From an uncultured Clostridia bacterium (GTDB lineage Bacteria; Bacillota; Clostridia; Christensenellales; Borkfalkiaceae), in contig CASDOP010000003.1 in assembly GCA_949282385.1 (NCBI GenBank), forward strand, positions 1 through 64,000: DNA of 64,000 nucleotides, written 5' to 3'. The position numbers and the translations under genes are program-made. Positions 6,361 through 63,878 of this stretch are shown one piece after another (the first letter of the stretch is position 1; each line of letters begins with the position of its first letter). The notes beneath the pieces were generated by a model. The model did no database searches and had not been told where the DNA came from. It saw only the letters and a program-made list of their open reading frames with translations.

Positions 6361-6457
6361 AAAAATCTGTCTGTTGTTTTGAAAAAACGTATGCGCCGCC
6401 CGCTCGCGCGAGCGAAGCGACGCTTTGCCGAGAGGTCCCCTTGGTGGGTTTCGGCAA

Positions 6458-49310: not shown

Positions 49311-49421
49311 TTCGGCAAACCGCTCGCGTCTCCCACCTCAAATCTCTCCATTTCTCTCTTGCATTAAAAAAAACAGGGCGCATTAGCGTCCTGTTTTTTG
49401 GCGCGGATGGCGAGATTTGCG
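49311..49421 (-). repeat. tRNA-Ser tail repeat, distal copy
   Basis: It contains the last part of tRNA-Ser (T-loop to CCA, minus strand about 49399-49420), the same terminator hairpin and the same flank (reading ...GCGAGCGGTTTGCCGA on the minus strand) as the copy 200 bp to the right, with a few substitutions. Confidence 0.85.
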
Positions 49422-49498
49422 CCTTTGCGGCGCGCCCCGAAAAACAGTCCGCAGGACTGTTTTGTTTGCCTTATTGCTTTGTTCCCACTCATGCATTC

Positions 49499-49618
49499 GC
49501 TCGGCAAACCGCTCGCTCCCGCTCGCGTCTCCCCCCTCAAATCTCCCCATTTTCTCTCTTGCATTAAAAAAAACAGGACGCATTAGCGTCCTGTTTTTTG
49601 GCGCGGATGGCGAGATTT
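49499..49618 (-). repeat. tRNA-Ser tail repeat, proximal copy
   Basis: This copy is joined to the tRNA-Ser fragment at attL. The body between the copies (about 49422-49498) holds a hairpin (AACAGTCC / GGACTGTT) and a GC-rich segment, with no credible gene. The period is exactly 200 bp over the hairpin. Confidence 0.85.
49571..49596 (-). terminator. Terminator after tRNA-Ser
   Basis: AAACAGGACGC / GCGTCCTGTTT arms followed on the minus strand by a T tract. Confidence 0.8.
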
Positions 49619-49660
49619 GAACTCGCGCTACGGTTTCCCGTACTACTCCCTTAGCAGGGG
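49599..49660 (-). tRNA. 3' fragment of tRNA-Ser (GCT) = prophage attL
   Basis: Read on the minus strand: anticodon loop CTGCTAA (anticodon GCT at 49653-49655), 3' anticodon stem GGGAG, a long class II variable arm (TACGG GAAA CCGTA), a perfect T arm (GCGAG TTCAAAT CTCGC), acceptor 3' strand CATCCGC, G and CCA. The 5' anticodon stem no longer pairs (CACCC) and there is no D arm or 5' acceptor, so homology stops in the anticodon stem. This is the scar left when a tyrosine integrase inserts a phage into the anticodon arm. Confidence 0.88.
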
Positions 49661-49668
49661 TGTCGTAT

Positions 49669-49773
49669 AAATTGTCTGTTTATCAATATATTGAATTAAT
49701 AATAAGCAAAAAACAGTATATATTGTAGATTACAATTAAATGCAAATTGTCTATTGTCTATAAATTGTCTATT
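49669..49773 (+). promoter_or_regulatory. Integrase arm-type sites (three direct repeats)
   Basis: AAATTGTCTRTT occurs at 49669-49680, 49744-49755 and 49762-49773, between attL and the integrase gene; the last two are 18 bp apart. Position and number fit arm-type binding sites of a tyrosine integrase or Xis sites. Confidence 0.6.
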
Positions 49774-49789
49774 CTGAGGGTAAAAAAAT

Positions 49790-50869
49790 TCATGAGAGTA
49801 GAGCACGTTCAATTCTGCCGACCGCATCTGCGGTCAGAACTTCGTCGGCGGTAGCATAGTGCTCTGCCGTAATCTTATAGGACGAGTGCCCCATCATTCG
49901 GAACGTCGTGTCCAAATCCACGCCTAAACGCTTGCAGGCGTTTGCAAAGGCATCGCGCAACTTGTGGAACGTGGTCTCTTTCAGACCGTTGTCTTTTAGG
50001 AACTTTGAAAATGCGTTAGATATGGTGTTCGGCTGAATGTTGGATCCGTTCTTATTGCAGCACACAAACGGGCTGGATATGCCGTTACGCGACTTGTAGT
50101 GGTGCAGTTCAGCATACAACCCTTCCGAACATACAAAGGTGCGACGGCGGTTCTCGGTCTTCTGACTTTTGATGAATGAGCGTCCGTTTACTGTGACGAT
50201 AGCCTTGTCGAGCGTCAGACGATACTTTCCGTCCTTTAAGCGTTCAAAGTCGCTCTCCTGCAAGGCACAGACTTCCTCCCTCGTAGCCGCAAAGAAGCAG
50301 GCACAGAGCACAGGCGTGTATAACTTAGAGCCACTCTCCTTGAGCTTTGCAAAAAGAAGTTTGATATCCTCAAAATCATATGCAGGAATTTTCTTCGGGC
50401 GGTATGTCGGCATATCTACGAACTCAAAGGGGTTCTCGCTCAACCAGCGCTTTTTCCGCGCGTAGTTAAACGCCGCATTCATGACCTTACGTATTTCCAC
50501 ACACGTAGAAGGCGAGTCAAGGTGCATGTCGATGAGCTTCTGACACATACGCTCGTTAATCTGTTTGATAGGCAGATGATCAACATATTCGGTAACATAG
50601 GAAATATACAGGTCGTATTTTTCCAACGTCTTAGGCGAGACGTCGCGCTTGACAAGACTTGCCCTCCACTCCTTACGGAGCTGCGCAAAAGTAACTTTTT
50701 CAGACGAAAGCGTTTCACCCTCAAGACGCGCTTTTTCCTGAACTTCCCATAACTGAGCGGCTTTTCGCGTCGGAAAACCGCTTTTGTACGGTCGCTGCGT
50801 ACGCCCAAAGCAATCTTTATAGTAGAATCGGGCAGCGTAGTTTTTGCCTTTCTCAATTTCAATTACCAT
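49790..50869 (-). CDS. int: Tyrosine-type phage integrase
   Basis: This 359-residue site-specific recombinase has an N-terminal arm-binding domain (about 1-60), a SAM-like core-binding domain (about 60-150, 'TFAQLRKEWRASLVKRDVSPKTLEKY') and a catalytic domain. The active residues are Arg197 (AATREEV), Lys237, His302-x-x-Arg305 (FHKLRD), His328 (MGHSS) and the nucleophile Tyr338 (AEHYAT). It faces attL, as expected. It overlaps the upstream HIRAN-like gene by seven bases. Confidence 0.96.
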   Translation of the reverse strand: MVIEIEKGKNYAARFYYKDCFGRTQRPYKSGFPTRKAAQLWEVQEKARLEGETLSSEKVTFAQLRKEWRASLVKRDVSPKTLEKYDLYISYVTEYVDHLPIKQINERMCQKLIDMHLDSPSTCVEIRKVMNAAFNYARKKRWLSENPFEFVDMPTYRPKKIPAYDFEDIKLLFAKLKESGSKLYTPVLCACFFAATREEVCALQESDFERLKDGKYRLTLDKAIVTVNGRSFIKSQKTENRRRTFVCSEGLYAELHHYKSRNGISSPFVCCNKNGSNIQPNTISNAFSKFLKDNGLKETTFHKLRDAFANACKRLGVDLDTTFRMMGHSSYKITAEHYATADEVLTADAVGRIERALLS

Positions 50870-51462
50870 AAATCCTCCTCTTCATCTCTGACATCCGTAA
50901 TTTCAATTTCACATTCATAATCAGAGTTAGGGTTGTCACTTTCTTTAGTTATACTGAACACGGTCGCATTAAATTTTGTATTCCTACCGTATTTTTCAGT
51001 TAACTCCTCAGCCACATCTTCGGGAAGATAACCAAGCCTTTTATTAAGGCGTATATGTTCAACAGCGTAACCATTTGGGTAATCTTTGGTATGATCAGGG
51101 ATAACTACGAGTTCATCATCTTCTTCGCACAGACTTAAATACCTTTGACGACTTTCAAAGTGAACGCCAACAATTTCAGTAAAAAGCGAAATTTCTGAAT
51201 CATGGATAATTTTAGTGTATTCCACTCTTTGTTTTGCGATTTCTTTATTTGCTTGATTTCTTAACTCGCTTCTGATTTTAGATTCAATTATTAACAAGAA
51301 AATGGCTAAGATTGAAAAAATTAAGCCCAATATTAAAGCAAATATTGATGAGGTACTGAAATAAATTATATAAAGAACAACGGCTAAAATTAAAGGGGTG
51401 TAGCATAATACAAAACGCGTAATTAACCCTAAAGATTTAAGCCATTCCTTGAATTTTTTCAT
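50863..51462 (-). CDS. Membrane-anchored HIRAN-like protein
   Basis: This 199-residue protein has two N-terminal membrane helices (about 15-35 and 39-60) and a charged helix. From about residue 95 there is a domain resembling HIRAN: a strand with 'ELVVIPDHTKDYPNGYAVEHIRL', then 'RLGYLPEDVAEEL' and a final strand 'KFNATVFSI'. HIRAN domains bind DNA 3' ends or damaged DNA in eukaryotic and bacterial proteins. The gene sits between the repressor and integrase genes and is expressed in lysogeny by position, a usual place for superinfection-exclusion or defence genes. The function is not known. Confidence 0.6.
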   Translation of the reverse strand: MKKFKEWLKSLGLITRFVLCYTPLILAVVLYIIYFSTSSIFALILGLIFSILAIFLLIIESKIRSELRNQANKEIAKQRVEYTKIIHDSEISLFTEIVGVHFESRQRYLSLCEEDDELVVIPDHTKDYPNGYAVEHIRLNKRLGYLPEDVAEELTEKYGRNTKFNATVFSITKESDNPNSDYECEIEITDVRDEEEDLW

Positions 51463-51464
51463 TA

Positions 51465-52124
51465 TTATAATTCCCTTATTAAATTTACGACTTTACCGAT
51501 GACGCGGCACTGCTCCAGATCATAACCTGAAAGTCTTTTTGTCTCGTACTCAGGATTAGCAGGAACAAGCTCCAACCAGTCTTCCCCGTTTACATAATTA
51601 ACCTTTTTAACGGTAGCATCCTGACCATCGTAGATAACTACGGCAAGGCAGCCGCTATCTACGCTATCAGTTCTCAAGCATAAAATTGTGTCTCCGTCTA
51701 AAAGTTTAGGATACATGCTATTCCCGGATACTTTCAAAGTGAAATACTCGGAAGCGGGACGACCTTTAAGCATAGATACAGGAATGTCTACTTTCTTCCC
51801 TGTCGGAATTTCGTCGATACAGCCACCGTAACCGGCACGCACAGTACCAAGTTCATCAAATGCCACTATTCCTTCTACAGGATAAACATTTGAGGGTTCG
51901 ACAGCTCCATTCAGTTCATCCGTCCAACCCATCAAATAAGCCGGAGAAACCATAAGCGCATTAGCAAAATCCTCAATTCGGGGTTGTGTAAGCAAATTAA
52001 CACCGCTTTCGATTTTAGCTATTGAAGATCTTGAAGTGTAACCGAGCCTCTTAGCAAGCGCATCTTGAGATAAGCCAAGCATGATTCTGCGCTCTTTAAT
52101 TCTTTCGCTTAATTTACTTTTCAT
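51465..52124 (-). CDS. Phage repressor, HTH XRE plus S24 (LexA/CI-like) peptidase
   Basis: This 219-residue repressor has an N-terminal XRE helix-turn-helix (about 5-65) and a C-terminal S24 domain. Self-cleavage should fall at Ala97-Gly98 (TVRAGYG). Ser136 (SGNSMYP) is the nucleophile, and Lys173 or Lys174 the base. It is therefore SOS-inducible. The start at 52124 follows GGAGGAAAT; the longer frame upstream lacks a ribosome site. It should bind the palindromic sites in 52165-52260 and 52485-52499. Confidence 0.95.
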   Translation of the reverse strand: MKSKLSERIKERRIMLGLSQDALAKRLGYTSRSSIAKIESGVNLLTQPRIEDFANALMVSPAYLMGWTDELNGAVEPSNVYPVEGIVAFDELGTVRAGYGGCIDEIPTGKKVDIPVSMLKGRPASEYFTLKVSGNSMYPKLLDGDTILCLRTDSVDSGCLAVVIYDGQDATVKKVNYVNGEDWLELVPANPEYETKRLSGYDLEQCRVIGKVVNLIREL

Positions 52125-52151
52125 ATATTTCCTCCATCTACAGGTAAGTGC

Positions 52152-52180
52152 ATTATAACACGCTTGTGAAAATAAATCAA
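52152..52180 (-). promoter_or_regulatory. Lysogeny promoter (repressor, HIRAN-like, integrase genes)
   Basis: On the minus strand TTGATT (52175-52180), 17-bp spacer, TATAAT (52152-52157). The -35 box lies inside an operator copy. Confidence 0.75.
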
Positions 52181-52182
52181 CA
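52165..52182. promoter_or_regulatory. Operator copy 1
   Basis: TGTGAAAATAAATCAACA, two differences from copy 2. It overlaps the -35 box of the lysogeny promoter. Confidence 0.65.
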
Positions 52183-52208
52183 AAAATTAAAAAAATTCCA
52201 CAAAACTG

Positions 52209-52237
52209 TTGACAAATAATAAACATGATGATATTAT
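52209..52237 (+). promoter_or_regulatory. Early lytic promoter (Cro-like gene onward)
   Basis: TTGACA (52209-52214), 17-bp spacer, TATTAT (52232-52237). The start point falls at the second operator. Confidence 0.8.
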
Positions 52238-52242
52238 TCTAA

Positions 52243-52260
52243 TGTGATTATAAATCAACA
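52243..52260. promoter_or_regulatory. Operator copy 2
   Basis: TGTGATTATAAATCAACA, an imperfect form of the palindrome GTGATTT-T-AAATCAC. It covers the start point of the early promoter. Confidence 0.65.
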
Positions 52261-52282
52261 TTACACAAGGAGGAAAACCGAG

Positions 52283-52483
52283 GTGACAGATTCCAGAAAA
52301 TTAAGAGCCATAATAATCGAAAGAGGCATGACGCAAAGCGAAGTAGCCGATAAACTCAATATTTCGCGCACCTCTTTTAATTATAAAGTAAATAATAAGC
52401 GCGCGTTCAACTCTGACGAAATGTTTAAGCTCTGTGAAATTTTAAAAATAGAAGACCCTAAGCCAATTTTTTTTGCAAATTAG
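52283..52483 (+). CDS. Cro-like HTH regulator
   Basis: This 66-residue protein is essentially one XRE helix-turn-helix ('MTQSEVADKLNISRTSFNYKVNNKRAFNSDEMFKLCEIL'). It starts with GTG at 52283, nine bases after AAGGAGG; an in-frame GTG further upstream (52244) lies at the transcription start. Position opposite the repressor gene suggests a Cro role. An exact operator palindrome follows its stop codon. Confidence 0.85.
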   Translation: MTDSRKLRAIIIERGMTQSEVADKLNISRTSFNYKVNNKRAFNSDEMFKLCEILKIEDPKPIFFAN

Positions 52484-52484
52484 C

Positions 52485-52499
52485 GTGATTTTAAATCAC
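52485..52499. promoter_or_regulatory. Operator copy 3, exact palindrome
   Basis: GTGATTTTAAATCAC: seven-base arms around one T. It lies two bases after the Cro-like gene. Confidence 0.6.
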
Positions 52500-52540
52500 A
52501 TAATAAAAGCCCCGCACGTTTGCGAGGCATTCTATAAAGC

Positions 52541-52942
52541 TTACATAGTGGTGAAATTTGCAAAAACAAATCTGGAAGGCTTTTCGGTTGTGATTGCTAT
52601 GGCACTGAATTTCCATGTTGCGCCAGCCGAAAGATAATTAATGTTGTCCAATGCAGTTCCTATTATATTGTCGTACTTATCATAGACGGTAAAAGTCACA
52701 TCCGCATAAGACAAGGTTCTACCACTTACATTGGTGATAACCCCGGTTATTGTTAGTGCGTATGTCCCACCAAGGTTGTCAATATCCCACTCAATACTTT
52801 CTTCATCTATTACAAGCATGTTCGCAGGTGTTGACGATGGCGGCGGATTATTGTCGTCCTTAAATATGTTACAGGCATATATAGAAAATCCTAATAGAAC
52901 CATTATTGCAACACAGACAAATAGAAGCGATATTTTTTTCAT
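52541..52942 (-). CDS. FxLYD-domain lipoprotein
   Basis: This 133-residue protein has a lipoprotein signal (lipobox ending YAC, Cys about 24), a Pro/Ser linker and one FxLYD-type beta domain ('ITGVITNVSGRTLSYADVTFTVYDKYDNIIGTALDNINYLSAGATWKF'). It is encoded against the early genes and so is probably expressed in lysogeny. Such genes are typical lysogenic-conversion cargo. The function is unknown. Confidence 0.8.
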   Translation of the reverse strand: MKKISLLFVCVAIMVLLGFSIYACNIFKDDNNPPPSSTPANMLVIDEESIEWDIDNLGGTYALTITGVITNVSGRTLSYADVTFTVYDKYDNIIGTALDNINYLSAGATWKFSAIAITTEKPSRFVFANFTTM

Positions 52943-53009
52943 ATTGCGTACCCTCTCTTAAGTCAATTATAACACAACCCTGTTGCCACCGCAAGGTAAA
53001 GGAGTAATT

Positions 53010-53315
53010 ATGACAAAAAATTTTAATACGGGCGGACTGATTCCTGTCGAAGATATCTACAACGCCAATGATTATCGCCGAAAGGCAAGATCAAAACCGG
53101 CACCCAGCGAAAAAAAGACAAGCCTTGAGCCGATGTTATCCATAATGGACGCGGCAAAGTTAGTCGGCGTCAATCGCAAAACCATTGATAAAGCGATAAA
53201 TAGCGGCGAACTCCCCTTCTACCCCATTGGCGCCAAGGCGCGCAAGATTAAAGAATCGGACCTTCAAAGATGGATAGAATCAAAGCGCACCATCTTCGGC
53301 AGCGAGGTGAATTAA
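53010..53315 (+). CDS. Excisionase-like helix-turn-helix protein
   Basis: This 101-residue protein has a disordered N-terminus and a MerR/excisionase-type winged helix at the C-terminus ('LSIMDAAKLVGVNRKTIDKAINSGELPFYPIGAKARKIKESDLQRWI'). The start at 53010 has AAGGAG. It could be Xis or an early regulator. It is followed directly by the next gene. Confidence 0.75.
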   Translation: MTKNFNTGGLIPVEDIYNANDYRRKARSKPAPSEKKTSLEPMLSIMDAAKLVGVNRKTIDKAINSGELPFYPIGAKARKIKESDLQRWIESKRTIFGSEVN

Positions 53316-53513
53316 ATGAAGTGGGAAACAGAGTCATCGAATTGCTGGAAGGCAGTCGGACAATGCGGCACATTTACTATTCGGCGAAAAGGAAAAATGT
53401 TCTGGCCTGAGTACACAGGTCAGGGCGGGCGCCATTTCAAGCTCCCCCCTTCGGATAAAATTTCCAGAGCTAAAACAATGTGCCAGGATAACTACTACTG
53501 GGAGGCAAATTGA
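53316..53513 (+). CDS. Small phage protein, unknown
   Basis: This encodes 65 residues with several Trp, Tyr and Cys. The ATG follows the previous stop codon at once. No family is recognised. Confidence 0.55.
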   Translation: MKWETESSNCWKAVGQCGTFTIRRKGKMFWPEYTGQGGRHFKLPPSDKISRAKTMCQDNYYWEAN

Positions 53514-53514
53514 T

Positions 53515-53865
53515 ATGTCGAAAGAATTTATGAAACGACTTCTTCAAATCGCCGAAAAATTGAACGACGAACAGGAAAAAATGTGCAACGGCAGAGAAGT
53601 GTGCGCAGGTTGCCACTGGTTCGATAATCTCAATCTCGGCGCCTCGGACAGTTTTTTAGGGTGCGGACAGTACATAGCCGCAAAGAAAATTCTTGCGAGG
53701 GAGCAGCTGATAAGGGTTATGCTTGACGACTATGAAGGTCCTGCTTGCGAATTCTGTGACTATAGCAGGAAGGACGGCAACTTATGCGCAATACACCAGG
53801 AGCGCGGCAATGACGCCTGCTTTGAGGGAATGATGGCATGGCTGGATGCCGAAAACTTTGATTAA
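53515..53865 (+). CDS. Cys-rich phage protein, probable zinc binder
   Basis: This 116-residue protein contains cysteine groups (CNGREVCAGCHWF; CEFCDYSRKDGNLC; later single Cys) fit for binding one or two zinc ions. The N-terminus is a short helix. GGAGG precedes the ATG. The function is unknown. Confidence 0.6.
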   Translation: MSKEFMKRLLQIAEKLNDEQEKMCNGREVCAGCHWFDNLNLGASDSFLGCGQYIAAKKILAREQLIRVMLDDYEGPACEFCDYSRKDGNLCAIHQERGNDACFEGMMAWLDAENFD

Positions 53866-53878
53866 CGGAGGCGACTGG

Positions 53879-55426
53879 GTGGAACTTCTACAGCTTACAC
53901 AATCAACGATAGAGATATTTGACGTCAAAGATATTAAGAACTTACGCAAAGGAATAGAGCAGGCTGTTATACATAACGATTTTTCAAAGTATTTAGAGTT
54001 TGAAAAATTAGTGGGGGATCTGACTGTTGATTGGTTGCAAAAGATATTTCAATATTACGAGGCTGACAGAGCTAAGAAAAAGCAGGATTACACGCCCAAA
54101 AGCCTTGCAGGACTGGTTGCGCGATTGACACAAATGGAATATGACGTTTGCGTTGACCTGTGCGCAGGAAGCGGTGCTCTTACCATTCAAAAATGGGCTG
54201 TGGATAAAAGCGTGAAATTTATCTGCTTAGAGTATGACGAAACGGTTATACCGTATCTGCTTTTTAACCTTGCCATACGTAATATTAGAGCAACTGTAAT
54301 CAACTGCGATGTTCTGAGTGGTGACGTGATTGCGAAGTATGAAGTTATAAGCTCGGAAAAATATTCAGTAGTTTCGATGGAGAAAGATAAGACTTTTAAA
54401 GTGGAGGCAAAAACATGCATATCCAATCCTCCATTCAATATGCGCTGGGAAATTCCAGTCTGCGCAAATATGCAAGAAAGGTTTTGTATGTACGGCTTGC
54501 CGCCCGAAAGTAATGCGAATTACGCATTTGTTTTAACGGCGTTGAGTTATGCAGATACTGTAGCGATGATTTTGCCTGCTTCTATTTTGGTTTCAGGTAA
54601 TAAAAAAGAGTGCGAGATAGTAAAGCGGTTGATCGAAAACAATTTTATTGAAGCTGTTATATCTTGTCCTGATAGGATGTTTGAATCTACTTCAATTGCG
54701 ACATGCGTAATCAAGTTAAACAAGCGCAAGAAACATTCGAATATAGAATTTATTGATATGCGCGATCACTCCGATAGTGAACAGCGAGAGCAGAATGGAC
54801 AGTTTGGCGGTGCTTCTCACATGAGAAGGACTTACATTAAAACAGTAAATGTCTTTTCTGATGAGCAGATTCAATTTATTTTATCGGCAATTCAAGAGCA
54901 GAGAAACGAGGTCAACAAATGCGTTTCCGTAACTATTGCTAAAGTAAAAGAATGCGGGTATATGCTTAACCCATCAAGGTATATTGGGATTAAAGAGGCA
55001 GAGACGGATCACAGGTCTTACGCGGATATCATCAGAGATTTAAACCACTGCATTGAAATGAAAAACTCCTGTAAGCTGACGATAAATGAAACTATTGCCA
55101 AGCAGTTAGGCTTCGATGTCGAGTCGTTTAAAAGCGACAAAGAACTTGGCGATGAAGAATTTTTGCAAAAGATATCCGGCGTTAAACTTCTCAAAAAAAA
55201 TTACATAACCTTTACCAAGAACAAAAACGAAGTTACTTTTTCGAATGGTAGCAAAGAACTTGTTTCTCCGGTTTTTATGTTGTTGTTTAATCAATGGAAG
55301 CAGCTAATATATATGTGGAACATTGAAGAAAATAGGTATTTGGCAGAGTTAAGAGACTGTTTATTACCGGACTTAATGCTTGGTAAAATAAGTGTTAATG
55401 ACGCGGATACTGATACCGAGCAATAA
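53879..55426 (+). CDS. N6-adenine DNA methyltransferase (HsdM-like) with HsdS-like tail
   Basis: This 515-residue protein has SAM motif I 'VCVDLCAGSGAL' (about 92-103), catalytic motif IV NPPF (about 184) and an HsdM-like core. The C-terminal 40 residues ('QLIYMWNIEENRYLAELRDCLLPDLMLGKISV') resemble the end of HsdS subunits, where the phrase 'LRD.LLPKLM.G.I' is usual. No target-recognition domain and no nuclease is present. The GTG at 53879 has GGAGG seven bases upstream and is preferred to the ATG at 53846. It may protect phage DNA from host restriction. Confidence 0.85.
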   Translation: MELLQLTQSTIEIFDVKDIKNLRKGIEQAVIHNDFSKYLEFEKLVGDLTVDWLQKIFQYYEADRAKKKQDYTPKSLAGLVARLTQMEYDVCVDLCAGSGALTIQKWAVDKSVKFICLEYDETVIPYLLFNLAIRNIRATVINCDVLSGDVIAKYEVISSEKYSVVSMEKDKTFKVEAKTCISNPPFNMRWEIPVCANMQERFCMYGLPPESNANYAFVLTALSYADTVAMILPASILVSGNKKECEIVKRLIENNFIEAVISCPDRMFESTSIATCVIKLNKRKKHSNIEFIDMRDHSDSEQREQNGQFGGASHMRRTYIKTVNVFSDEQIQFILSAIQEQRNEVNKCVSVTIAKVKECGYMLNPSRYIGIKEAETDHRSYADIIRDLNHCIEMKNSCKLTINETIAKQLGFDVESFKSDKELGDEEFLQKISGVKLLKKNYITFTKNKNEVTFSNGSKELVSPVFMLLFNQWKQLIYMWNIEENRYLAELRDCLLPDLMLGKISVNDADTDTEQ

Positions 55427-55494
55427 ATTTTTAATGCGTATTACCCCGCCCAAAAGTGGGACGAATTTGTAGAAAAAGCAGTAGCAGGTTAAGG

Positions 55495-55545
55495 AAGTTG
55501 GTATAATTCCAACTTCGACGGCAAAATCAAGCGGGAAACCCGCTT
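55495..55545 (+). promoter_or_regulatory. Two hairpins before the 55564 gene, extended -10 site
   Basis: AAGTTGG / CCAACTT (55495-55501 / 55509-55515) enclose TATAATT in the loop, preceded by TGG as in extended -10 promoters. A second stem, AAGCGGG / CCCGCTT (55529-55535 / 55539-55545), follows. Together they may form a promoter with a leader hairpin. Confidence 0.4.
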
Positions 55546-55563
55546 GCCTTGGAGGGCTAAAAA

Positions 55564-55887
55564 ATGGACATCGAAGTTATCGGAGGCGGCACCCACAAAG
55601 CGCGCAAGTCATATGTTTGCGATATGTGCGGACGCAGAATTGAGGTTGGCGAAAGGTATGAACAGACATTCTGCAAAGACATTGATAGCAGCAAGACGAT
55701 AACCTATCGGCTACATAAACGCTGCGGTGAAATTGTGGGTAAGTTTAATAGAATGCATGGTGCAATTCCCGATGAATTGAGCTTTCGGCAAGTTGCAGAA
55801 TGGGTACAAGAAGACTGCTGTCCCCACTGCCCCCTCAGCGGAGGAACGGAATGCACTGGTGACATATTTACCTGTAAGGGATTTTAA
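55564..55887 (+). CDS. Zinc-ribbon phage protein, unknown
   Basis: This 107-residue protein has an N-terminal zinc-ribbon-like pair (YVCDMCGRRIEVGERY, then HKRCG) and a C-terminal Cys cluster (CCPHCPLSGGTECTGDIFTC). GGAGGG precedes it. Proteins of this type are common in phages of gut Bacillota and have no assigned role. Confidence 0.6.
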   Translation: MDIEVIGGGTHKARKSYVCDMCGRRIEVGERYEQTFCKDIDSSKTITYRLHKRCGEIVGKFNRMHGAIPDELSFRQVAEWVQEDCCPHCPLSGGTECTGDIFTCKGF

Positions 55888-55898
55888 GGAGGGACGGA

Positions 55899-56117
55899 AT
55901 GTTAAAGGCATATGACATAAAAACGGGCGAAGAGGTCAAAGAAGGCGACACCATAATCGACTTCCGCGGCGATAAAGCCATATTCACAGGGGCAATCAGA
56001 GCGACGGACCCACCTAAGGACGGCAAGGTTTGCTTCAGAACAAAAGAATCCAGATTCCCGGGCGAGTGCTACGCGCATGTGTTCGGGCTGGTCGTCAGAG
56101 AGGTGCGTGATGTTTGA
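55899..56117 (+). CDS. Small phage protein sharing a domain with the DUF3310 protein
   Basis: This 72-residue beta-rich protein begins MLKAYDIKTGEEVKEGDTIIDFRGD. This is clearly related to the start of the DUF3310 protein at 56708 (MLRAFDRNTGREIKPGEIITDIFGH), so both have the same small N-terminal module. Confidence 0.6.
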   Translation: MLKAYDIKTGEEVKEGDTIIDFRGDKAIFTGAIRATDPPKDGKVCFRTKESRFPGECYAHVFGLVVREVRDV

Positions 56118-56724
56118 GCAAAAGGTTAAACCTCTGTTCGATAAATTGCTGTTAAAATTAGCTGTTGCTTTGGATTATTTCGATGATGGCGATAACGCCA
56201 CGGCAAAACAGAAAATTGAAGAAGCTCATGAGTTGACAAATTCGTTATTTCACACAGCTTCAGAAGTTTTTCAAACGCTTCAAACTAACTACGATGACTT
56301 AGCCAATAAATGGAACAACCAGCGGTGTCTGTATAGCTACGATGGCGAATATATGGAATACTGCGCAAATGGTCCATGCCCGCATGAAAAAGCGACAGTT
56401 TCTGAAGATGAACTCAAACGCATTCGTGCACAAAAGATAGAAACCGAAATAATAAACATTGTAAAAAGTCACTGCAACCGCCAAGGAATTGCAAAAAAAT
56501 GTCCCGAACGTATAGCGCACGGACTTTATTACGCACACTTCCGCAAGGCGGACGAGGTCATCGATGAGTTTGCAGACAACCTTAAAGCAAAGATAGAAAA
56601 TTACACTTACGAGAATACCGAAGGCGCAGATTATTGCTGTTTATTAACCGAGGAATTAATTGATATGATAAACCAATCTGCCGACGAGATGAAAAAGGAG
56701 GCGCTTAATGCTGAGAGCGTTTGA
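56110..56724 (+). CDS. Phage protein, unknown
   Basis: This 204-residue mostly helical protein starts MFEQKVKPLF at 56110, overlapping the previous gene by eight bases, and ends overlapping the next by 17. A Cys/His patch (CLYSYDGEYMEYCANGPCPHE) could bind a metal. No family is recognised. Confidence 0.6.
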   Translation: MFEQKVKPLFDKLLLKLAVALDYFDDGDNATAKQKIEEAHELTNSLFHTASEVFQTLQTNYDDLANKWNNQRCLYSYDGEYMEYCANGPCPHEKATVSEDELKRIRAQKIETEIINIVKSHCNRQGIAKKCPERIAHGLYYAHFRKADEVIDEFADNLKAKIENYTYENTEGADYCCLLTEELIDMINQSADEMKKEALNAESV

Positions 56725-57151
56725 CCGTAATACCGGCAGAGAAATAAAGCCGGGTGAAATTATAACAGACATATTTGGTCACAAAAGTTTTTTGATGGCA
56801 CTTGACGAAGGCAAAGTATTGTACAGAGATTCTGCCGACTATGGAATTGCAAAAACCTCCAGCGACACTTTCTTTAACCTTATAGTCAAAGACGACAACA
56901 AACAGCCTGCAAATGCAGAATACCAAGCAGATAACACCAATCCGTATTACTACAGGCAAGGGATTGAAGTCATAGATTTCATAGAGTGCTACGGATTGAA
57001 TTTTCACAGAGGCAATGCCGTCAAATATATAGCTCGTGCCGGCAAAAAAGATCCTTCGAAAGAAAGCGAAGACCTGAGAAAGGCAATCTGGTATTTGCAG
57101 CGCGAATTGCAAAGAATTGCTACTTCAGAACACTCGGAGGAAAAATCATGA
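56708..57151 (+). CDS. DUF3310-domain phage protein
   Basis: This 147-residue protein has an N-terminal module like the 55899 protein and a C-terminal DUF3310 domain ('YRQGIEVIDFIECYGLNFHRGNAVKYIARAGKKD...DLRKAIWYLQREL'). DUF3310 proteins are nucleotide-kinase-associated or of unknown role in many Bacillota phages. The stop codon overlaps the next start (ATGA). Confidence 0.82.
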   Translation: MLRAFDRNTGREIKPGEIITDIFGHKSFLMALDEGKVLYRDSADYGIAKTSSDTFFNLIVKDDNKQPANAEYQADNTNPYYYRQGIEVIDFIECYGLNFHRGNAVKYIARAGKKDPSKESEDLRKAIWYLQRELQRIATSEHSEEKS

Positions 57152-57396
57152 GCGCTTCAGATTACGGAATAAACATGAGTCTCGACTACTCTGATGCGCC
57201 GCAGCCTAAACTTTCATTCGGCATAGACGGCAAATTTTCAGTCGTATCGCAGATACTCGATAACTTAAGGAGCAAATATGCTCACACAGCAATCGCCTCA
57301 CTCCCCCACTCCGTCTTATCTTATGAAATGAATGTGGCATACGCGATTGCTTTTGAACAGCAAATGGAGATATCAAAATCAAAATGTGGACAGTAA
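57148..57396 (+). CDS. Small phage protein, unknown
   Basis: This encodes 82 residues, with GGAGG before the ATG at 57148. No family is recognised. It overlaps both neighbours by a few bases, as is usual in tightly packed phage operons. Confidence 0.5.
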   Translation: MSASDYGINMSLDYSDAPQPKLSFGIDGKFSVVSQILDNLRSKYAHTAIASLPHSVLSYEMNVAYAIAFEQQMEISKSKCGQ

Positions 57397-57632
57397 CTTT
57401 ACCATATCCGCCTAACGCGGAAGTCTGGATCCCCGAATGCAACCATCTCGGAAACTGGCACGCGATACGTTGTAAGATTCGCAACTATATGATTTACGAA
57501 GACGGCGATATCGAAGTAGCCTTAATGGACCGCAACAGCAGATACAAATTCGCAACCCCAAATAACTTATGCGAAAGCGAAAGCGCTGCGCTCGAGCTTG
57601 CAAAAAAACTTCAAGCGGACCGCGCAAAATAA
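57384..57632 (+). CDS. Small phage protein, unknown
   Basis: This 82-residue beta-rich protein with a helical C-terminus ('SAALELAKKLQADRAK') begins inside the previous gene. No family is recognised. Confidence 0.5.
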   Translation: MWTVTLPYPPNAEVWIPECNHLGNWHAIRCKIRNYMIYEDGDIEVALMDRNSRYKFATPNNLCESESAALELAKKLQADRAK

Positions 57633-57657
57633 TTCTGCCGCTTCTCTGCGGCATTAT

Positions 57658-57757
57658 GGCGATATAGTTAAACAGGTATAACTGCTTGCCCCCCTTCAAT
57701 CATATTTCCCCCATCAAACTATGGCAGGCATTGAGGGTTCAAATCCGTCTATCGCCA
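57658..57757 (+). ncRNA. tRNA-like structure with enlarged anticodon arm
   Basis: It folds like a tRNA: acceptor GGCGATA (57658-57664) / TATCGCC (57750-57756), D-stem GTTA/TAAC, T-loop TTCAAAT with a 5-bp stem holding one mismatch, and discriminator A with no encoded CCA. The anticodon stem GCTTG/CAGGC can extend to 7 bp (GCTTGCC/GGCAGGC), but the loop is about 36 bases instead of 7 and pyrimidine-rich. The variable loop is only three bases. It may be a degenerate tRNA, a tRNA with a short insertion, or a tRNA mimic. Confidence 0.5.
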
Positions 57758-57762
57758 CAAAT

Positions 57763-57778
57763 TTGCAATCAACTGCAA
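57763..57778 (+). repeat. 16-bp near-palindrome, left copy
   Basis: TTGCAATCAACTGCAA, directly after the tRNA-like fold and next to the ribosome site of the 57795 gene. Its reverse complement recurs at 61475-61490 with one difference. Confidence 0.6.
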
Positions 57779-57794
57779 AAGGAGGACCAATTTA

Positions 57795-58775
57795 ATGAAT
57801 GAAACCTACAAACAACTCATGATTTTGCCCGAAGGCGAACTGACCCCCGGGCAGAAAGATTTTTTAGCTGTACATAACGAAATGCTTATGGCAGGGCGCA
57901 AAGCCGCCGATTGCTTAATCATTATGGCTAAAGATATGAAGAAAATGCGCGACGAAGAACTCTACAAAGAAGCGGGCTTCGCCACATTCAAGGAATATGT
58001 CGAGGATGCGCTCGAAATAAAAGAACGCCAGGCATATAACTGGATAAGCGTGCTTGACCTTCCTCCCGAAAAGCTCCAGATTCACGCCGGAATGGGCGTA
58101 ACAAAACTCGCACTTATAGCCTCCGCCTCTCCTTCCGTTCAGGAAGAAGTTTTGAGCGATGAAGACGTCGAAAGTGCCACCGTCAAACAGCTTCGGGACA
58201 GAATTAAGGAGCTTGAGGATGCGGACAAAGAAAAAACTTCGCAGCTCGATATTTTTATTGAGGAAAAGAACAGAAATAAAATCGAACTCGATAAAGCCAA
58301 AAGAGAAAAAGCCGATGTTGAAAACAGCCACAAACGACTTGCCGATAATCTCCGACACGTCGAAGATGCGCTTGACGCCGCAAAGAAAGCTCAGCAAGAT
58401 GCAGAGAAGCTTGTTGCTGAAAAAAATGAAAGGATTAAAGAGCTTGAGGATAGCCTTTCAGCGGCGGCAGCTCCTGCCGAACCGCAGACCGTCGAAGTCG
58501 AGGTCGAAAAGATTGTCGATAACCCCGAAACTATCAAAGAGCTGGATGCGGCACGCGAAGAACTCAGGCAGTTAAAGGAAAATAGTGCTAACGCGAAGAA
58601 AACTGCTGAAGCGTTGGCGATGTTCAAAGCAAATCTTATAACCATGAATGACAGCCTCGACAAGTGTCTCGAAGCTATTGACCATATAGAGGAAAGCGAT
58701 GTCGATCTCGCGGAAAAGTGCACGCAAAAGCTGTGGGCGTTCCGTGATGTCATAAACAACGTGTTGGAGGGCTGA
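57795..58775 (+). CDS. Coiled-coil phage protein (DUF3102-like)
   Basis: This 326-residue protein has an N-terminal part (about 1-110) resembling phage DNA-binding DUF3102-type proteins ('MRDEELYKEAGFATFKEYVEDALEIKERQAYNWISV'). A long Lys/Glu/Ala coiled coil (about 125-220), a Pro/Val hinge and a second coil complete it. AAGGAGG precedes the start. The likely role is a DNA-linked scaffold in replication or partition; this is an inference. Confidence 0.65.
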   Translation: MNETYKQLMILPEGELTPGQKDFLAVHNEMLMAGRKAADCLIIMAKDMKKMRDEELYKEAGFATFKEYVEDALEIKERQAYNWISVLDLPPEKLQIHAGMGVTKLALIASASPSVQEEVLSDEDVESATVKQLRDRIKELEDADKEKTSQLDIFIEEKNRNKIELDKAKREKADVENSHKRLADNLRHVEDALDAAKKAQQDAEKLVAEKNERIKELEDSLSAAAAPAEPQTVEVEVEKIVDNPETIKELDAAREELRQLKENSANAKKTAEALAMFKANLITMNDSLDKCLEAIDHIEESDVDLAEKCTQKLWAFRDVINNVLEG

Positions 58776-58777
58776 TC

Positions 58778-59134
58778 ATGAAGAAACTTGACTACCTGAA
58801 GATGCTCATTCAGGATAACGAAACCGAGACACAGCCCACAAAGGAGCTGCACGAGGACGTCATTGAGTGTACTATCGAGGCGCTCTCCCAAAGCGGCGAC
58901 GATATCGAAGTCGACCAGTCTGTCGGCCTTGGTGACCTCTACAAGATTATTGAGGATGCGGGCAAAAAATCGTCGGCGCGTTGTGTGCCGCCGACAGTCG
59001 CCGCCAAGCTTATCGCCCAGCGCCTGGGCGTTGAGTACGAAAGACCTTTTGACATTCTGAAAGCACGGTTCTTTGCCACGGAAATGCCTAAGACCGCGCC
59101 CCGCCGTTCGAGAATTGACCTCGACGACCTTTAA
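58778..59134 (+). CDS. Phage protein, unknown
   Basis: This 118-residue acidic, mostly helical protein lies two bases after the coiled-coil gene and 10 before the PcfJ-like gene. No family is recognised. Confidence 0.55.
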   Translation: MKKLDYLKMLIQDNETETQPTKELHEDVIECTIEALSQSGDDIEVDQSVGLGDLYKIIEDAGKKSSARCVPPTVAAKLIAQRLGVEYERPFDILKARFFATEMPKTAPRRSRIDLDDL

Positions 59135-59144
59135 GGAGGCGGCT

Positions 59145-61073
59145 ATGTGTATGTGCGGATATGGCTACTATTCAAAGCCGAGAGAAAAAACCCAGAAGGG
59201 ATTACTATTAAAAATACAACATATGTCTACACGGCTGCCCTCTGACTTCGAGGAGTTTGAACATTCTGACTTCTTGAAAATAATGTTCTATGAAAGATTT
59301 GACAGAAAGCATGTTACCGGCTTTTGTGAGTGCGGTGCAGCTGTACATCTTACAAAAGCGCAGTCGGGAAGAATCATAGAGTGCCCCGCCTGTAAGAGCA
59401 AAGTTAGATTGACACGAAAATCCTTCCAAAACATATCACAGCGTAATTACAGCTGTTTTGTCAACCGATTTGAAAACGGTTGGGTCGACAGAATGTTCAT
59501 AGTAGAAAAATATAGTGTACTGAAAGACGGCGAAGTCGAAGTTAGCTATAAGCACTGGGAAGAACAGAGAGATTACTTTGATGGCGAAAATCATTATTCC
59601 TTTCATCCAATTTTGGGCAATGACGAACGATGGGCAAAAGGTGCAGGCAGGATACACGGTATGGGCTACAATTCTTGGCGAATTGAAGACAAACCGCTTA
59701 GGACATATCCTAAAAATATACCAAGGCTGTTCAGGGGAACCCCCTTTGAATATTCGCAGATAGAGACAGCAATAGCCATCCACAATGTCAATCCGTTCTA
59801 TTACCTGCGAAAATATAAAATTTATCCTAAGTTAGAGCTTGTCTATAAGGTAGGGCTCTATAAGCTCGCAGCTCAAATTGTTGAAACACCAATAAGTTGG
59901 GGCATGTCAAACGAAACACGAAGGATAATAGAGAATATAAAATCTCTTAAAGATCTGGGTATAGACAAAAAGGAAGAGCTTGAAGAGTGCAGAGATTTGC
60001 CTGTAACTATTCTCATTGCGAGGAAGGAAGTTAAACGCTGGAAAATACCCGATGAACAAAAAGCGGATGCATGGGATTTTATCGCAGCTTTAAACAATCA
60101 TAGTGGCGAGGATATGGTTTATTCCTTTATGTCACGCAAGAGTTGGTATAAATACTTTCTGACGCAGACGGAAGAATATTGTTCACCAGAATCCTTTATA
60201 AGCGACTATACGGATTACATTTCAGACTGTAGCCACTTAGGATTAGATCTTGACGACACTATGATTTCCCGTCCAAAATCGTTGAAAAATGCACATCAGG
60301 CTATTATCGAAGAAATTGAAATTCAAAAGACGCAGGTCTATGACGCCCTTATTGAGACTGCGTGGGAAAGTATGCATAATCTTGTGGAATGGCAGGACGG
60401 CAATTTTATGGTCATAATGCCGAGAACGTCGCGAGAAATAGTAAACGAAGGACAGAGACAGTGCCACTGTGTAGGACGATATTGCGAGCGTGTAGCGATG
60501 GGCGAAAGCGTTATTCTTTTCATTCGTAAATGCTTGGATCCTGATAATGGCGGATATACCGCCGAAATTAAAAAGGATATGCGCTGTCTTGATATCGTGC
60601 AATGCAGAGGTTACAAGAACGCCGAAGCACCTGCGGAGGTTAAATCTTTCCTTGAAAAATACAAAAATTGGTTTGAATACCGTTCGATTGGTGACTATAA
60701 CTCCGACAGTCTTATGGTCAAATATTTTAAAGCGGTACATAAACGTGACGGAAAATATATAAGCGACAGAGACAAGAAAATGGAATTTATTGTTGGTGAA
60801 TGGAAAGAGGAAATCGATACAGACACTAACCCTGATAATGTAGCTGTAAAAGGTCTGCATGTCGCTTCAATGGAATTTGCACAAAAATTTGGTGACAGTT
60901 GGAATGATGTTGCCATTCTTGAGATCGAAACAAACATTCATGACGTAATTATCCCTGACGCTAAAGACCAGGTGCGCACATCAAAATTTAAAGTAATCAG
61001 AGAAGTGCCATTTGAAGAGATGGGCGATTGGGGCGAAAAACACATGAAAAAATCAAATACGGAGGCGGCATAA
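59145..61073 (+). CDS. PcfJ-like phage protein
   Basis: This 642-residue protein has an N-terminal zinc ribbon (CECGAAVHLT...CPACK, about 60-90), a long middle part and a PcfJ-like C-terminal domain ('VNEGQRQCHCVGRYCERVAMGESVILFIRK...GYTAEIKKD...DIVQCRGYKNAEAP'). PcfJ occurs in conjugative plasmids and phages without a known biochemical role. The start at 59145 follows AAGGAGG. Its stop overlaps the next start by one base. Confidence 0.8.
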   Translation: MCMCGYGYYSKPREKTQKGLLLKIQHMSTRLPSDFEEFEHSDFLKIMFYERFDRKHVTGFCECGAAVHLTKAQSGRIIECPACKSKVRLTRKSFQNISQRNYSCFVNRFENGWVDRMFIVEKYSVLKDGEVEVSYKHWEEQRDYFDGENHYSFHPILGNDERWAKGAGRIHGMGYNSWRIEDKPLRTYPKNIPRLFRGTPFEYSQIETAIAIHNVNPFYYLRKYKIYPKLELVYKVGLYKLAAQIVETPISWGMSNETRRIIENIKSLKDLGIDKKEELEECRDLPVTILIARKEVKRWKIPDEQKADAWDFIAALNNHSGEDMVYSFMSRKSWYKYFLTQTEEYCSPESFISDYTDYISDCSHLGLDLDDTMISRPKSLKNAHQAIIEEIEIQKTQVYDALIETAWESMHNLVEWQDGNFMVIMPRTSREIVNEGQRQCHCVGRYCERVAMGESVILFIRKCLDPDNGGYTAEIKKDMRCLDIVQCRGYKNAEAPAEVKSFLEKYKNWFEYRSIGDYNSDSLMVKYFKAVHKRDGKYISDRDKKMEFIVGEWKEEIDTDTNPDNVAVKGLHVASMEFAQKFGDSWNDVAILEIETNIHDVIIPDAKDQVRTSKFKVIREVPFEEMGDWGEKHMKKSNTEAA

Positions 61074-61474
61074 TGAAAGAAACAAATGAACCCATCCTTG
61101 CCTGCCCGTTCTGCGGACAAACCAGACTGGATGTTATACGCAATGAAAATTTAGAAACGGGCGTTGATAAAAAATTGATAGGCGCCCTCTACTGCAACTG
61201 TTCCGACGCACAACGATTTCGGGCAAAGAAAAAAAGTAAAGACGGCTTAAAGGATATAATCGACGAGTTTGCGCACTACGCCGAAAGTAAAGGCATAGCC
61301 ATCAAGGACGCGGACAAGTTGGTCCTTAAATCAAACGCCGAGGCTGTAATCGACAATCGCTTTGACAGCATGACAATCAAAGTAGACACGATTACAGTTA
61401 AGCTGTCGCTCGACAAGGACGGAGCATTAAAATTCGGCGTCGTCTACAAATACGGATATAGTCAGCTGACATAA
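61073..61474 (+). CDS. Phage protein with zinc-knuckle start, unknown
   Basis: This 133-residue protein has CPFC near the N-terminus and CNC further on (likely zinc ribbon), then a helical and a beta-strand part. It overlaps the PcfJ-like gene (TAATGA) and ends the block bracketed by the 16-bp palindromes. Confidence 0.6.
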   Translation: MKETNEPILACPFCGQTRLDVIRNENLETGVDKKLIGALYCNCSDAQRFRAKKKSKDGLKDIIDEFAHYAESKGIAIKDADKLVLKSNAEAVIDNRFDSMTIKVDTITVKLSLDKDGALKFGVVYKYGYSQLT

Positions 61475-61490
61475 TTGCAGTTGACTGCAA
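61475..61490 (-). repeat. 16-bp palindrome, right copy
   Basis: TTGCAGTTGACTGCAA with seven-base arms, starting at the base after the 61073 gene's stop codon. It is the inverse of the left copy, with one base changed. Confidence 0.6.
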
Positions 61491-61497
61491 AAAAATA

Positions 61498-61528
61498 AAG
61501 CTCTGCGGGGAATTTTCCCGCAGAGCTT
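61498..61528 (+). terminator. Terminator of the early operon
   Basis: AAGCTCTGCGGG / CCCGCAGAGCTT arms (61498-61509 / 61517-61528). Confidence 0.75.
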
Positions 61529-61740
61529 AACCACAGACAAACTTAAAGAATATCTGCAACCTACATTATTTATTATATAGGATATTCTTCCCTTTGTCAA
61601 CAAACCCGCGCTCAGAGGGCTTTCCCGTCCTCGTAATGGGTAGTAACTTCTCGCTGTTAGCCAATTTAAGAGCACACAAAAGCAGGGGTTGCCAAGCGGC
61701 TGGGGTGCAACCCCAGAGAGCGTCATCGCCGGAGGCAAAG
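61529..61740 (+). other. Noncoding region before the HUH replication gene
   Basis: About 210 bases without a credible gene. It holds a hairpin GGGGTTGC / GCAACCCC (61685-61692 / 61707-61714) with a 14-base loop, and GGAGG for the next gene. Given the HUH protein that follows, a nicking origin here is possible. Confidence 0.4.
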
Positions 61741-62601
61741 ATGAAAAAAAGAAAGGGCTACGATATAGCCGGGTATGTAGACGATATCTACACCCATCCA
61801 TTTGAAGATACGAGAGAAGAACGCATTGAAGCCGCACTTCGCTCAAACAACATCTCCCACTATCGGGTTAAAACCATAATTTCCGGACCAATTGTAGAAT
61901 CAGAAATCTATCCCGTTTGGAATTCAAGAAGATATGCGCCGCCAAAGCCAAAGAGTAAAGGATCTTCGACCGCACAGAAAAATCTCAACGAAAAGAATGC
62001 GAGAAAAAAGTTCTGCAGACTTCTTAATGCAAATTTTACCGCAGACGACATCTGGGCTACATTTACCTATGACCAACAACACAGACCTGAAAATGTTGAT
62101 GGCGCAATCAAAGAGATGCAGAAATACATCAAGCGTCTTTCAGCATACGTCAAAAAACATTCTCTTCCTCCCCTCAAATATCTGTATGTGACAGAATATA
62201 ACGACGAGGAAGGAAAGGGAAACAAGGTGCGCATCCACCACCACCTTGTGACAAATTTCCGAGACAGGGACGTCGCCGAACGGCTATGGAAGTGCGGCGG
62301 CAGAACAAACACAAGACGACTTCAACCTGACGACTTCAACCTCGAAGGTCTCGGTCGCTATCTGACCAAAGGCAAGCGCCGCTGGAACTCGTCTCTTAAC
62401 CTTGAAAAGCCTAAGGTCTATACAGCTGACAGTAAATTCCGTTCTGTTCGCCAGGTCGAAAGTCTTTTAATTCCGACGAAAGCTGCGGAAAAGCTGTCCA
62501 AGCTGTATCCCCATTTTATCGTACTCGAACCGCCGAAGATTTATACCAATGCGCTATACGGCGGTTATTACATATACACCAGGATGCGGAGGGCTGAATG
62601 A
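61741..62601 (+). CDS. HUH-type rolling-circle replication protein
   Basis: This 286-residue protein has all three motifs of rolling-circle Rep proteins in order: motif 1 'IWATFTYD' (about 104-111), motif 2 'KVRIHHHLVTN' with HHH at 166-168 for metal binding, and motif 3 'LGRYLTKG' with the nicking Tyr207 and Lys210. It resembles the ORF2/G2P-type Rep found in phages of Bacillota. The start at 61741 (MKKRKGYDIAGY) follows CGGAGG. It should nick an origin to start replication. Confidence 0.8.
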   Translation: MKKRKGYDIAGYVDDIYTHPFEDTREERIEAALRSNNISHYRVKTIISGPIVESEIYPVWNSRRYAPPKPKSKGSSTAQKNLNEKNARKKFCRLLNANFTADDIWATFTYDQQHRPENVDGAIKEMQKYIKRLSAYVKKHSLPPLKYLYVTEYNDEEGKGNKVRIHHHLVTNFRDRDVAERLWKCGGRTNTRRLQPDDFNLEGLGRYLTKGKRRWNSSLNLEKPKVYTADSKFRSVRQVESLLIPTKAAEKLSKLYPHFIVLEPPKIYTNALYGGYYIYTRMRRAE

Positions 62602-62795
62602 TGACTACTGCCGAGAAAATATCCAGAATGGTCAAAAAGAAGGAACAAAAGTTGAAAGAGATCTGCCTCGACTGCAATGTGTGGCCTTGTCGGGGAAATT
62701 GCCAGAAGTTCAAGACGCAAAGTGCCGCCGTTAAAAAGTGGTACAAAATCAAAGTGGCAAAAATCAAAGCGCAAAAAAGCAAGGGGAAAAAGTAA
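62598..62795 (+). CDS. Small basic phage protein, unknown
   Basis: This encodes 65 residues (or 64 if started at 62601). It is very Lys-rich, with a CLDCNVWPCRGNC cluster able to bind zinc. It overlaps the end of the HUH gene. Confidence 0.55.
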   Translation: MMTTAEKISRMVKKKEQKLKEICLDCNVWPCRGNCQKFKTQSAAVKKWYKIKVAKIKAQKSKGKK

Positions 62796-62796
62796 T

Positions 62797-63177
62797 ATGA
62801 GCAATAATATCGCAAATGCACGCAAAGAGATAAGATCCTACCTCAGAGGATACAGGTTTTGTCTGTCGAAAGCCAATTCAATCGAGGGTATGCTGCGAAA
62901 CGGTGTAGTAGCCGATTGTGTTCGCGGAGAGCTTGTCCGCGTAAAGGACAAAGCGGCTGAACAATGCGCTAACGTGCAAATCATAATCCGTTGCGTCGGC
63001 GGCATTGAATACGAAGTTCTGAACGCGCATTATATTCTCGGCAAAAAGCCTAAGCTCATAGCGCGGGAAATGCGGTATAGCGTCGGGTACATTGCCAATG
63101 TGGAAGCTGCCGCGATTAAAAAATTAGCCGAAATCAAAGAAGTTTTATCAATAATCCATGCCGCTAAAGACGACTGA
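62797..63177 (+). CDS. Phage late-gene regulator, sigma-70 region 4-like
   Basis: This 126-residue protein has a helical N-terminus and a C-terminal helix-turn-helix like sigma region 4 ('LNAHYILGKKPKLIAREMRYSVGYIANVEAAAIKKLAEI'). It resembles ArpU/RinA-type regulators that sit just before the packaging genes of temperate phages. GGGG-rich sequence precedes the ATG. Confidence 0.7.
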   Translation: MSNNIANARKEIRSYLRGYRFCLSKANSIEGMLRNGVVADCVRGELVRVKDKAAEQCANVQIIIRCVGGIEYEVLNAHYILGKKPKLIAREMRYSVGYIANVEAAAIKKLAEIKEVLSIIHAAKDD

Positions 63178-63545
63178 AAAGCACATTTTAAGAAAAATAC
63201 TCCATTTTTTTAGTGCAACTCATTAAAAAATGTGAATTTTTGTTAAAAACTCATTAAAAAATGTGAAAATTTACTGTTTATAATTTAATCAAATTCAAGC
63301 ACATGCAGTTTCAGGCATATGCCACCACTCCCTCTTCCGGGAAAACAAATTATAAACTTGTGTATAGGGGGGGGTATCCACTACCCCACCCTTATTTTTC
63401 AACAACGACGCCGGGAGTTACACACATATTTTTGACGGAAAATAAAGATTTCGTCGAAAAATCGGCGCAAATCAGTAAAAAACCAATCAAATTTTCAAAA
63501 ATTAAGCGGCATAAAAGAACATCGGAGGCGGCAAATCGATAGGAG
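63178..63545 (+). other. Noncoding region before HNH/terminase (candidate cos and late promoter)
   Basis: This is 368 bases without a credible gene. A 20-bp direct repeat, AACTCATTAAAAAATGTGAA, occurs at 63217-63236 and 63248-63267. A run of eight G at 63367-63374 leads into a hairpin GGGGTA / TACCCC (63371-63376 / 63382-63387). Position before HNH and the small terminase is where cos and the late promoter are usual in such phages. Confidence 0.5.
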
Positions 63546-63878
63546 ATGAAATATGAAGAGCGTTCGGAAGTTAAGCGTAAGTTTTACAACTCGACGGCAT
63601 GGCGAAAGCTCAGTGCGTACTACGCAGCAAGTAAAGGCTGGATCTGCGAACGCTGCAAAAACAAAAACGTCGATTTCACCAAACCGATATACGGTCAGCT
63701 CCACTGCCATCATATCCAGGAATTGACCGATGACAATATTCAAAATCCCGACATAGCTCTGAACGAGGACAACCTTATTCTTCTGTGTCGGGTATGCCAT
63801 AATCGGCAACATTCAGACAGCGAGGTACTGGCACCCGGTCTATATTTTGACGAAAACGGAATGCCAAAAAAGAAATGA
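63546..63878 (+). CDS. HNH endonuclease (packaging-associated)
   Basis: This 110-residue nuclease has a CxxC pair (CERC), the HNH core 'LHCHHIQEL' and 'NEDNLILLCRVCHNRQH'. In head-tail phages HNH proteins beside terminase help cut cos ends. The ATG at 63546 abuts AGGAG with no spacing, but an in-frame stop just upstream leaves no better start. Its stop overlaps the terminase start. Confidence 0.92.
   Translation: MKYEERSEVKRKFYNSTAWRKLSAYYAASKGWICERCKNKNVDFTKPIYGQLHCHHIQELTDDNIQNPDIALNEDNLILLCRVCHNRQHSDSEVLAPGLYFDENGMPKKK

Follow-up and report, generated by a model that had tools for sequence, protein, structure and literature searches.

Mobile DNA at tRNA genes normally measures kilobases and brings its own integrase. 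The 64,000-nt stretch of DNA analyzed here (the window), from an uncultured Clostridia bacterium, raises the question of what places a second copy of a tRNA 3′ end only about 200 bp behind the first. A preliminary description of the window reported such a repeated tail, running from the T-loop to CCA, 200 bp apart at a tRNA-Ser and another at a spacing of 192 at tRNA-Arg(ACG), and proposed one mechanism for both. The two repeats are present, the first as 49399-49419 and 49599-49619, and the second follows the same plan. The features around the tRNA-Ser repeat are given in the order in which they are read on the tRNA strand, with the basis of assignment in brackets.

49661 to 64000, no strand: prophage splitting the tRNA-Ser gene, running on to contig position ~85,160
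49790-50869, minus: prophage integrase, just inside the 49660 boundary
49599 to 49660, minus: 3′ half of the host tRNA-Ser(GCU), anticodon loop to CCA, split by the prophage (intact ortholog at locus L219)
49599 to 49619, minus: proximal tail CAAATCTCGCCATCCGCGCCA, from C56 of the T-loop to CCA (repeat comparison)
49566 to 49598, minus: intrinsic terminator of the tRNA, hairpin and T run (inverted repeat)
49538 to 49548, minus: anti-tail GGGGAGATTTG, pairing with the tail so as to enclose the terminator (inverted repeat, cross-locus comparison, folding)
49420 to 49537, minus: class B structured body of 118 bp, its end hairpin abutting the distal tail
49399 to 49419, minus: distal tail, the same as the proximal tail at every base (repeat comparison)
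49366 to 49398, minus: terminator copy after the distal tail, 1 mismatch (inverted repeat)
49312 to 49349, minus: second, truncated unit, consisting of an anti-tail and the start of a class B body (direct repeats)

The segment 49351-49419 matches 49551-49619 with one mismatch in 69 positions at a spacing of exactly 200, and a flanking part of 34 nt has its second copy at a spacing of 199. The tail is thus doubled, as described, but this is not a plain tandem duplication: the order on the minus strand is tail, terminator, anti-tail, 118-bp body, tail, terminator and the start of a second truncated unit, i.e. an A-B-A layout. The anti-tail at 49538-49548, an inverted copy of the start of the tail, had been missed. 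Folded as single-stranded DNA, the unit has a z-score of -4.9, with the pairing of anti-tail and tail enclosing the terminator. A truncated class B unit is also found after the intact tRNA-Ser gene at L219.

The tail and terminator repeat belongs to tRNA-Ser, as claimed, but the gene itself is not intact. Neither ARAGORN nor Rfam found a complete tRNA-Ser at the repeat site; the 5′ half lies at contig ~85,170-85,207, ~35.5 kb off and beyond the prophage. The closest relative (genome G046; L219) carries the same tRNA-Ser whole and without the prophage, next to a GDSL-type protein that is 99% identical to ours. The prophage junctions share a common core of only ~11 bp (CTTAGCAGGGG, anticodon loop and stem), and because they have so little in common the tRNA-Ser(GCU) is not rebuilt. 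At its far end the prophage has its own complete tRNA-Ser(GCU) (C3:84904-84991) with another tRNA beside it. Such an arrangement is named tRNA-dependent lysogeny (PMC10865867), and the prophage in the anticodon loop of tRNA-Ser(GCU) is a candidate case of it from the Clostridia. The tail repeat, on the host side, is independent of this arrangement.

Some further observations concern this prophage and its surroundings. ATTGTCTATAAATTGTCT motifs recur on both sides of the attachment core (49661-49682 and 49739-49775; 1008-1030 of L009) and are probably integrase arm sites, and the core sits within a palindrome, ACGACACCCCT..AGGGGTGTCGT. Inside the prophage, 57658-57757 on the plus strand gives a tRNA-like Rfam match of 100 nt and 38 bits with no ARAGORN call. 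Elsewhere in the assembly, contig C1 starts near a tRNA-Ser(CGA)-like 3′ part with a class A unit (C1:290-510; L046), and an integrase adjoins tRNA-Ser(CGA) at C2:1498-2157, which together suggest another split tRNA.

The tRNA-Arg(ACG) unit consists of three parts.

6208 to 6284, plus: tRNA-Arg(ACG), intact, with the proximal tail at 6264-6284
6285 to 6455, plus: terminator, imperfect anti-tail and class C body, with the end hairpin at 6427-6455
6456 to 6476, plus: distal tail, 2 mismatches

Its class has one copy in the genome and is distinct from that of the Ser unit. The motif TTTGCCGAG, put forward as common to the two units, is weak: class B keeps only GGTTTGC, and CCGA follows in 1 of 6 aligned bodies. 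It also fails as a link between the units, which belong to different body classes, and was rejected as a recombination site because it is not conserved. What the units truly have in common is a duplicated tail, an anti-tail after the terminator and a hairpin abutting the second tail. The idea of one mechanism behind both tRNAs is nevertheless supported, since the T-loop break and the unit size recur at other tRNAs and in about two thirds of the same-genus genomes sampled.

The genome-wide work was done on tRNA flanks, for which 51 ARAGORN tRNAs were fetched. When the 3′ flanks were checked for other tails, these were found, so the objection that other tRNAs lack them does not apply. The tRNA's own tail is repeated within 600 bp in 7 of 50 tRNAs of the genome (allowing up to 4 mismatches in 21 nt), compared with 0.03 expected from swapped tails. 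Downstream repeats occur at Arg-ACG, Thr-CGT (3 extra tails), Val-GAC (2), Ser-GGA, Ser-UGA (3) and Leu-CAG; the split Ser-GCU also repeats its tail and Leu-AAG does so imperfectly. The family is present in 40 of 61 same-genus genomes, and units also sit after tmRNA. In an order-wide sample of 297 genomes, the positives all belonged to either the same genus or a single sister genus within its family. Apparently, the tRNA-tail units are an undescribed family of gene-less DNA elements of ~190 bp from one family of uncultured Clostridia; searching the literature for such repeats turned up nothing comparable.

Complete units, i.e. those with both tails, measure 167-211 bp (median 186, n = 72), which leaves no room for an integrase gene. 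They share the plan tail (T-loop to CCA), terminator, anti-tail, structured body of ~98 or 118 bp, and tail again, with the end hairpin of the body adjoining the distal tail. The first base of the tail is C56 of the T-loop. Of 62 proximal tails, 48 are preceded by GTT, and 40 of 62 distal tails follow GCG, a base triplet of the element. The anti-tail, located after the terminator, matches positions 56-65 of the local tail; it fits its own tail at 9.45 of 10 positions and those of other tRNAs from that genome at 6.43 of 10. The fetched loci contain 168 distinct tRNAs, of which 75 have a distal tail and 93 do not; anti-tails accompany 63 of the former and 7 of the latter, and several of these 7 are truncated units. 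The class A body (~98 bp) has three hairpins between AGGGGAGGCAAGC and CCGTGCGC, followed by an end hairpin whose loop is GCTCAA, and the class B body (~118 bp) is that of the Ser unit of the window. Further body types occur at Arg-ACG/Ala, Gly and Thr, although loci outside this genome were mostly picked by their match to the class A model and the other classes are therefore undercounted. A further hairpin module (GATGAGCGAG..GCGCGAACGGTGACC), which may be a repeat family in its own right, lies within unit bodies at L050, L080, L091 and L092, and in reverse at L084.

The covariation of the bodies allows one to ask whether they fold as DNA or as RNA. In class A (89 distinct bodies), each of the 27 body pairs has changed on both sides (413 cells; 0 of 500 shuffles), and sliding the pairing partners abolishes this covariation. 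G.U pairs are tolerated in RNA helices. Among 2299 class A body cells, G.T accounts for 28 and A.C for 22, compared with 105 and 10, respectively, in the acceptor and T stems of tRNAs from the same loci; the G.T share is 1.3% versus 8.5% in tRNA stems. Fisher tests give p = 5e-7 for the G.T:A.C ratio and 4e-25 for the G.T share, values that are optimistic given that the sequences are related. The scarcity of G.T in the bodies therefore favors DNA folding, or hairpin copying at the DNA level, and speaks against RNA folding of the body helices. Mismatches in the second hairpin are GA/AG in 60 cases versus TC/CT in 6, a bias that points to the strand with the tRNA sense as the one that folds. Tail:anti-tail pairing and DNA-type body pairs are the observations that bear on a possible likeness to attC cassettes, in which inverted boxes surround a variable hairpin and fold in one DNA strand. 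Comparing units from 6 loci with Rfam yielded nothing plausible, and a known RNA family was rejected on this ground; a guide-RNA scaffold, with the tail as guide and GGTT as PAM, is disfavored by the few G.U pairs.

Class A bodies at different tRNAs of the same genome are 81.5% identical, whereas those at the same tRNA of different genomes reach 72.0%, against a background of 71.8%. For 13 of 57 bodies the nearest relative sits at another tRNA of the same genome, compared with 1.5 by shuffling. The proximal terminator is similar to the unit's own distal terminator in 32% and never to those of other tRNAs in the genome. Because of these body identities, the anti-tail fit and the terminator pattern, the body is to be regarded as shared, and the tail, terminator and anti-tail as local. 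The preliminary description had called for strains to be compared for gain or loss; in the assemblies used, which are MAGs, one per species, the tRNA-Ser(GCU) locus lacks a unit in at least 6 relatives (L225-L230), has a truncated one in L219 and is occupied in further genomes. The overall pattern could come from mobility or from gene conversion, of which the empty sites and scattered occupancy favor mobility. The case for movement comes from the likeness of the bodies, neither excision nor a fresh insertion having been observed.

The genome contains 8 tyrosine recombinase genes; a recombinase linked to the units, a unit with cargo or an autonomous partner was not found. The bodies had no match in phage, plasmid and viral collections, and a phage or plasmid origin was set aside on that basis; two exact viral hits of the end motif fall within a phage coding region and are hence attributed to chance. 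Y1 transposase (PF01797) was detected neither in this genome nor in the unit-rich genomes G002, G016, G026 and G037, and a RAYT/Y1 transposase was rejected as the driver, being unrelated to unit number. Cas1 (PF01867) and reverse transcriptase (PF00078) were likewise not detected in this genome, and this absence excludes them as general drivers.

The position of the units behind tRNA genes, the doubled tRNA end and its inverted copy suggest small mobile DNA tied to tRNA ends. Our leading reading, which we hold tentatively and with somewhat less than even confidence, is that the units are non-autonomous mini-elements that would be folded as single-stranded DNA at the T-loop and served by a tyrosine recombinase in trans. 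A unit at the 3′ end of a tRNA or tmRNA gene would bring or make a second copy of the tail (T-loop to CCA), such that the tRNA stays whole. The strand with the tRNA sense would act as folded single-stranded DNA, in which the hairpin of tail and anti-tail may imitate a double-stranded T-arm half-site adjoining the end hairpin of the body. The putative recombinase would exchange the unit at the T-loop, a step modelled on the integron attC site or on filamentous phages, whose attP is folded. A gene-less integron-like system is possible but rather doubtful: here, T-loops of tRNA and tmRNA genes would take folded single-stranded DNA cassettes, with a tyrosine recombinase of the cell or of a phage moving them and the recombination box (tail and anti-tail) rebuilt for each host tRNA.

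These readings must be weighed against explanations that need no dedicated mobility. Local duplication of tail and terminator, with the anti-tail arising by fold-back (palindrome template switching at the terminator hairpin), arrays by unequal crossing-over and similar bodies by ectopic gene conversion, would account for the perfect or near-perfect tandem units (L025 units 1-2, L061, L083, L086), for the homology of proximal and distal terminators in 32% and for the greater likeness of bodies within one genome. It cannot, however, create a body that is conserved in sequence and structure throughout the genus, after tmRNA and numerous unrelated tRNAs, and it is at odds with units starting at the same T-loop base and with empty sites that lack an anti-tail; we consider it rather unlikely. 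We regard it as improbable that the copies are genes for a structured non-coding RNA whose 3′ end resembles that of a tRNA, the anti-tail and distal tail forming an acceptor/T-arm mini-helix with CCA and a terminator. Strong covariation, the strand bias of GA/AG mismatches and the CCA, often with a terminator, after the distal tail would fit such an RNA, but G.U pairs are nearly absent, with G.T about equal to A.C, Rfam gave no match for the units of the 6 loci, and inspection of the sequences revealed no space for a promoter between terminator and anti-tail.

Decayed attL/attR remnants of ordinary phages or islands using the tRNA T-loop are about as improbable. A T-loop breakpoint with a displaced tRNA tail is a hallmark of such elements (PMC4383910), and several arrays abut phage or recombinase genes; against this stand the narrow range of unit sizes and the conserved and covarying bodies without a match in phage, plasmid or viral collections; nor was a larger element bounded by such ends observed. 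Finally, short hairpin-rich repeats, a tRNA 3′ target and direct repeats each resemble the products of one or other of RAYT/IS200-type transposases, reverse transcriptases and casposase/Cas1. That one of these enzymes made the units is nonetheless very improbable, as their genes are absent from this unit-rich genome, and Y1 also from the four other genomes named above.

Comparison with known systems shows which traits of the units are shared. tRNA and tmRNA genes host islands and prophages of the Islander class (PMC4383910), and tRNA gene fragments have also been described (PMC9897764). The units resemble these islands and prophages in the tRNA/tmRNA target, the T-loop break, the target kept whole, the 3′ fragment displaced to the far end, the occupancy in tandem and the tRNA 3′ end directly repeated at both ends of the insert (72 complete units). 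Unlike kilobase islands, they are gene-less and ~0.19 kb long, with an inverted tail copy, a conserved folded body and bodies common to different tRNAs of a genome. Integron attC hairpins imitate double-stranded sites (PMC2727003), and attC cassettes likewise form arrays at a fixed site; their inverted boxes around a variable hairpin and Watson-Crick structure on one DNA strand may have a counterpart in the units. The units differ in having no genes and no known integron integrase, in the tRNA T-loop as the fixed site, in a putative folding strand that is the tRNA's and in pairing boxes that follow the local tRNA. Like REP/BIME sequences and MITEs, they are short, hairpin-rich intergenic repeats that carry no genes and are present in many copies, but they are bound to tRNA ends and flanked by tails in a genome without Y1 transposase. 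Casposons insert in tRNA genes (PMC6614799), at the 3′ end and with target duplication; this duplication is 14-15 bp, whereas the tail of the units is 21 nt or longer, and the units have an anti-tail and lack Cas1 and terminal inverted repeats.

If the mobile reading is true, a large family of gene-less units of ~190 bp, each with direct and inverted copies of the local tRNA tail and with helices evolving in a DNA-like rather than RNA-like manner, would represent a novel means by which selfish or structural DNA occupies tRNA ends. The units would offer a simple natural test system for single-strand DNA recombination outside integrons. They also yield false tRNA fragments and make genomic islands harder to map in these genomes.

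Three minor observations concern the wider set of loci. The tmRNA genes at L057 and L115 have the T-loop TGCAAGT instead of TTCRANT, are found by Rfam and missed by ARAGORN, and have tail units downstream. The hairpin AAAACAGCGGAYACCCGCTGTTTT has several short matches in G024, G054 and G013, where the class A model hit is absent or weak. The tail arrays at L127, L135, L157, L160 and L173 abut the C-terminal coding end of an apparent large serine recombinase, and it looks as if these tRNA ends are also the target of a different class of element.
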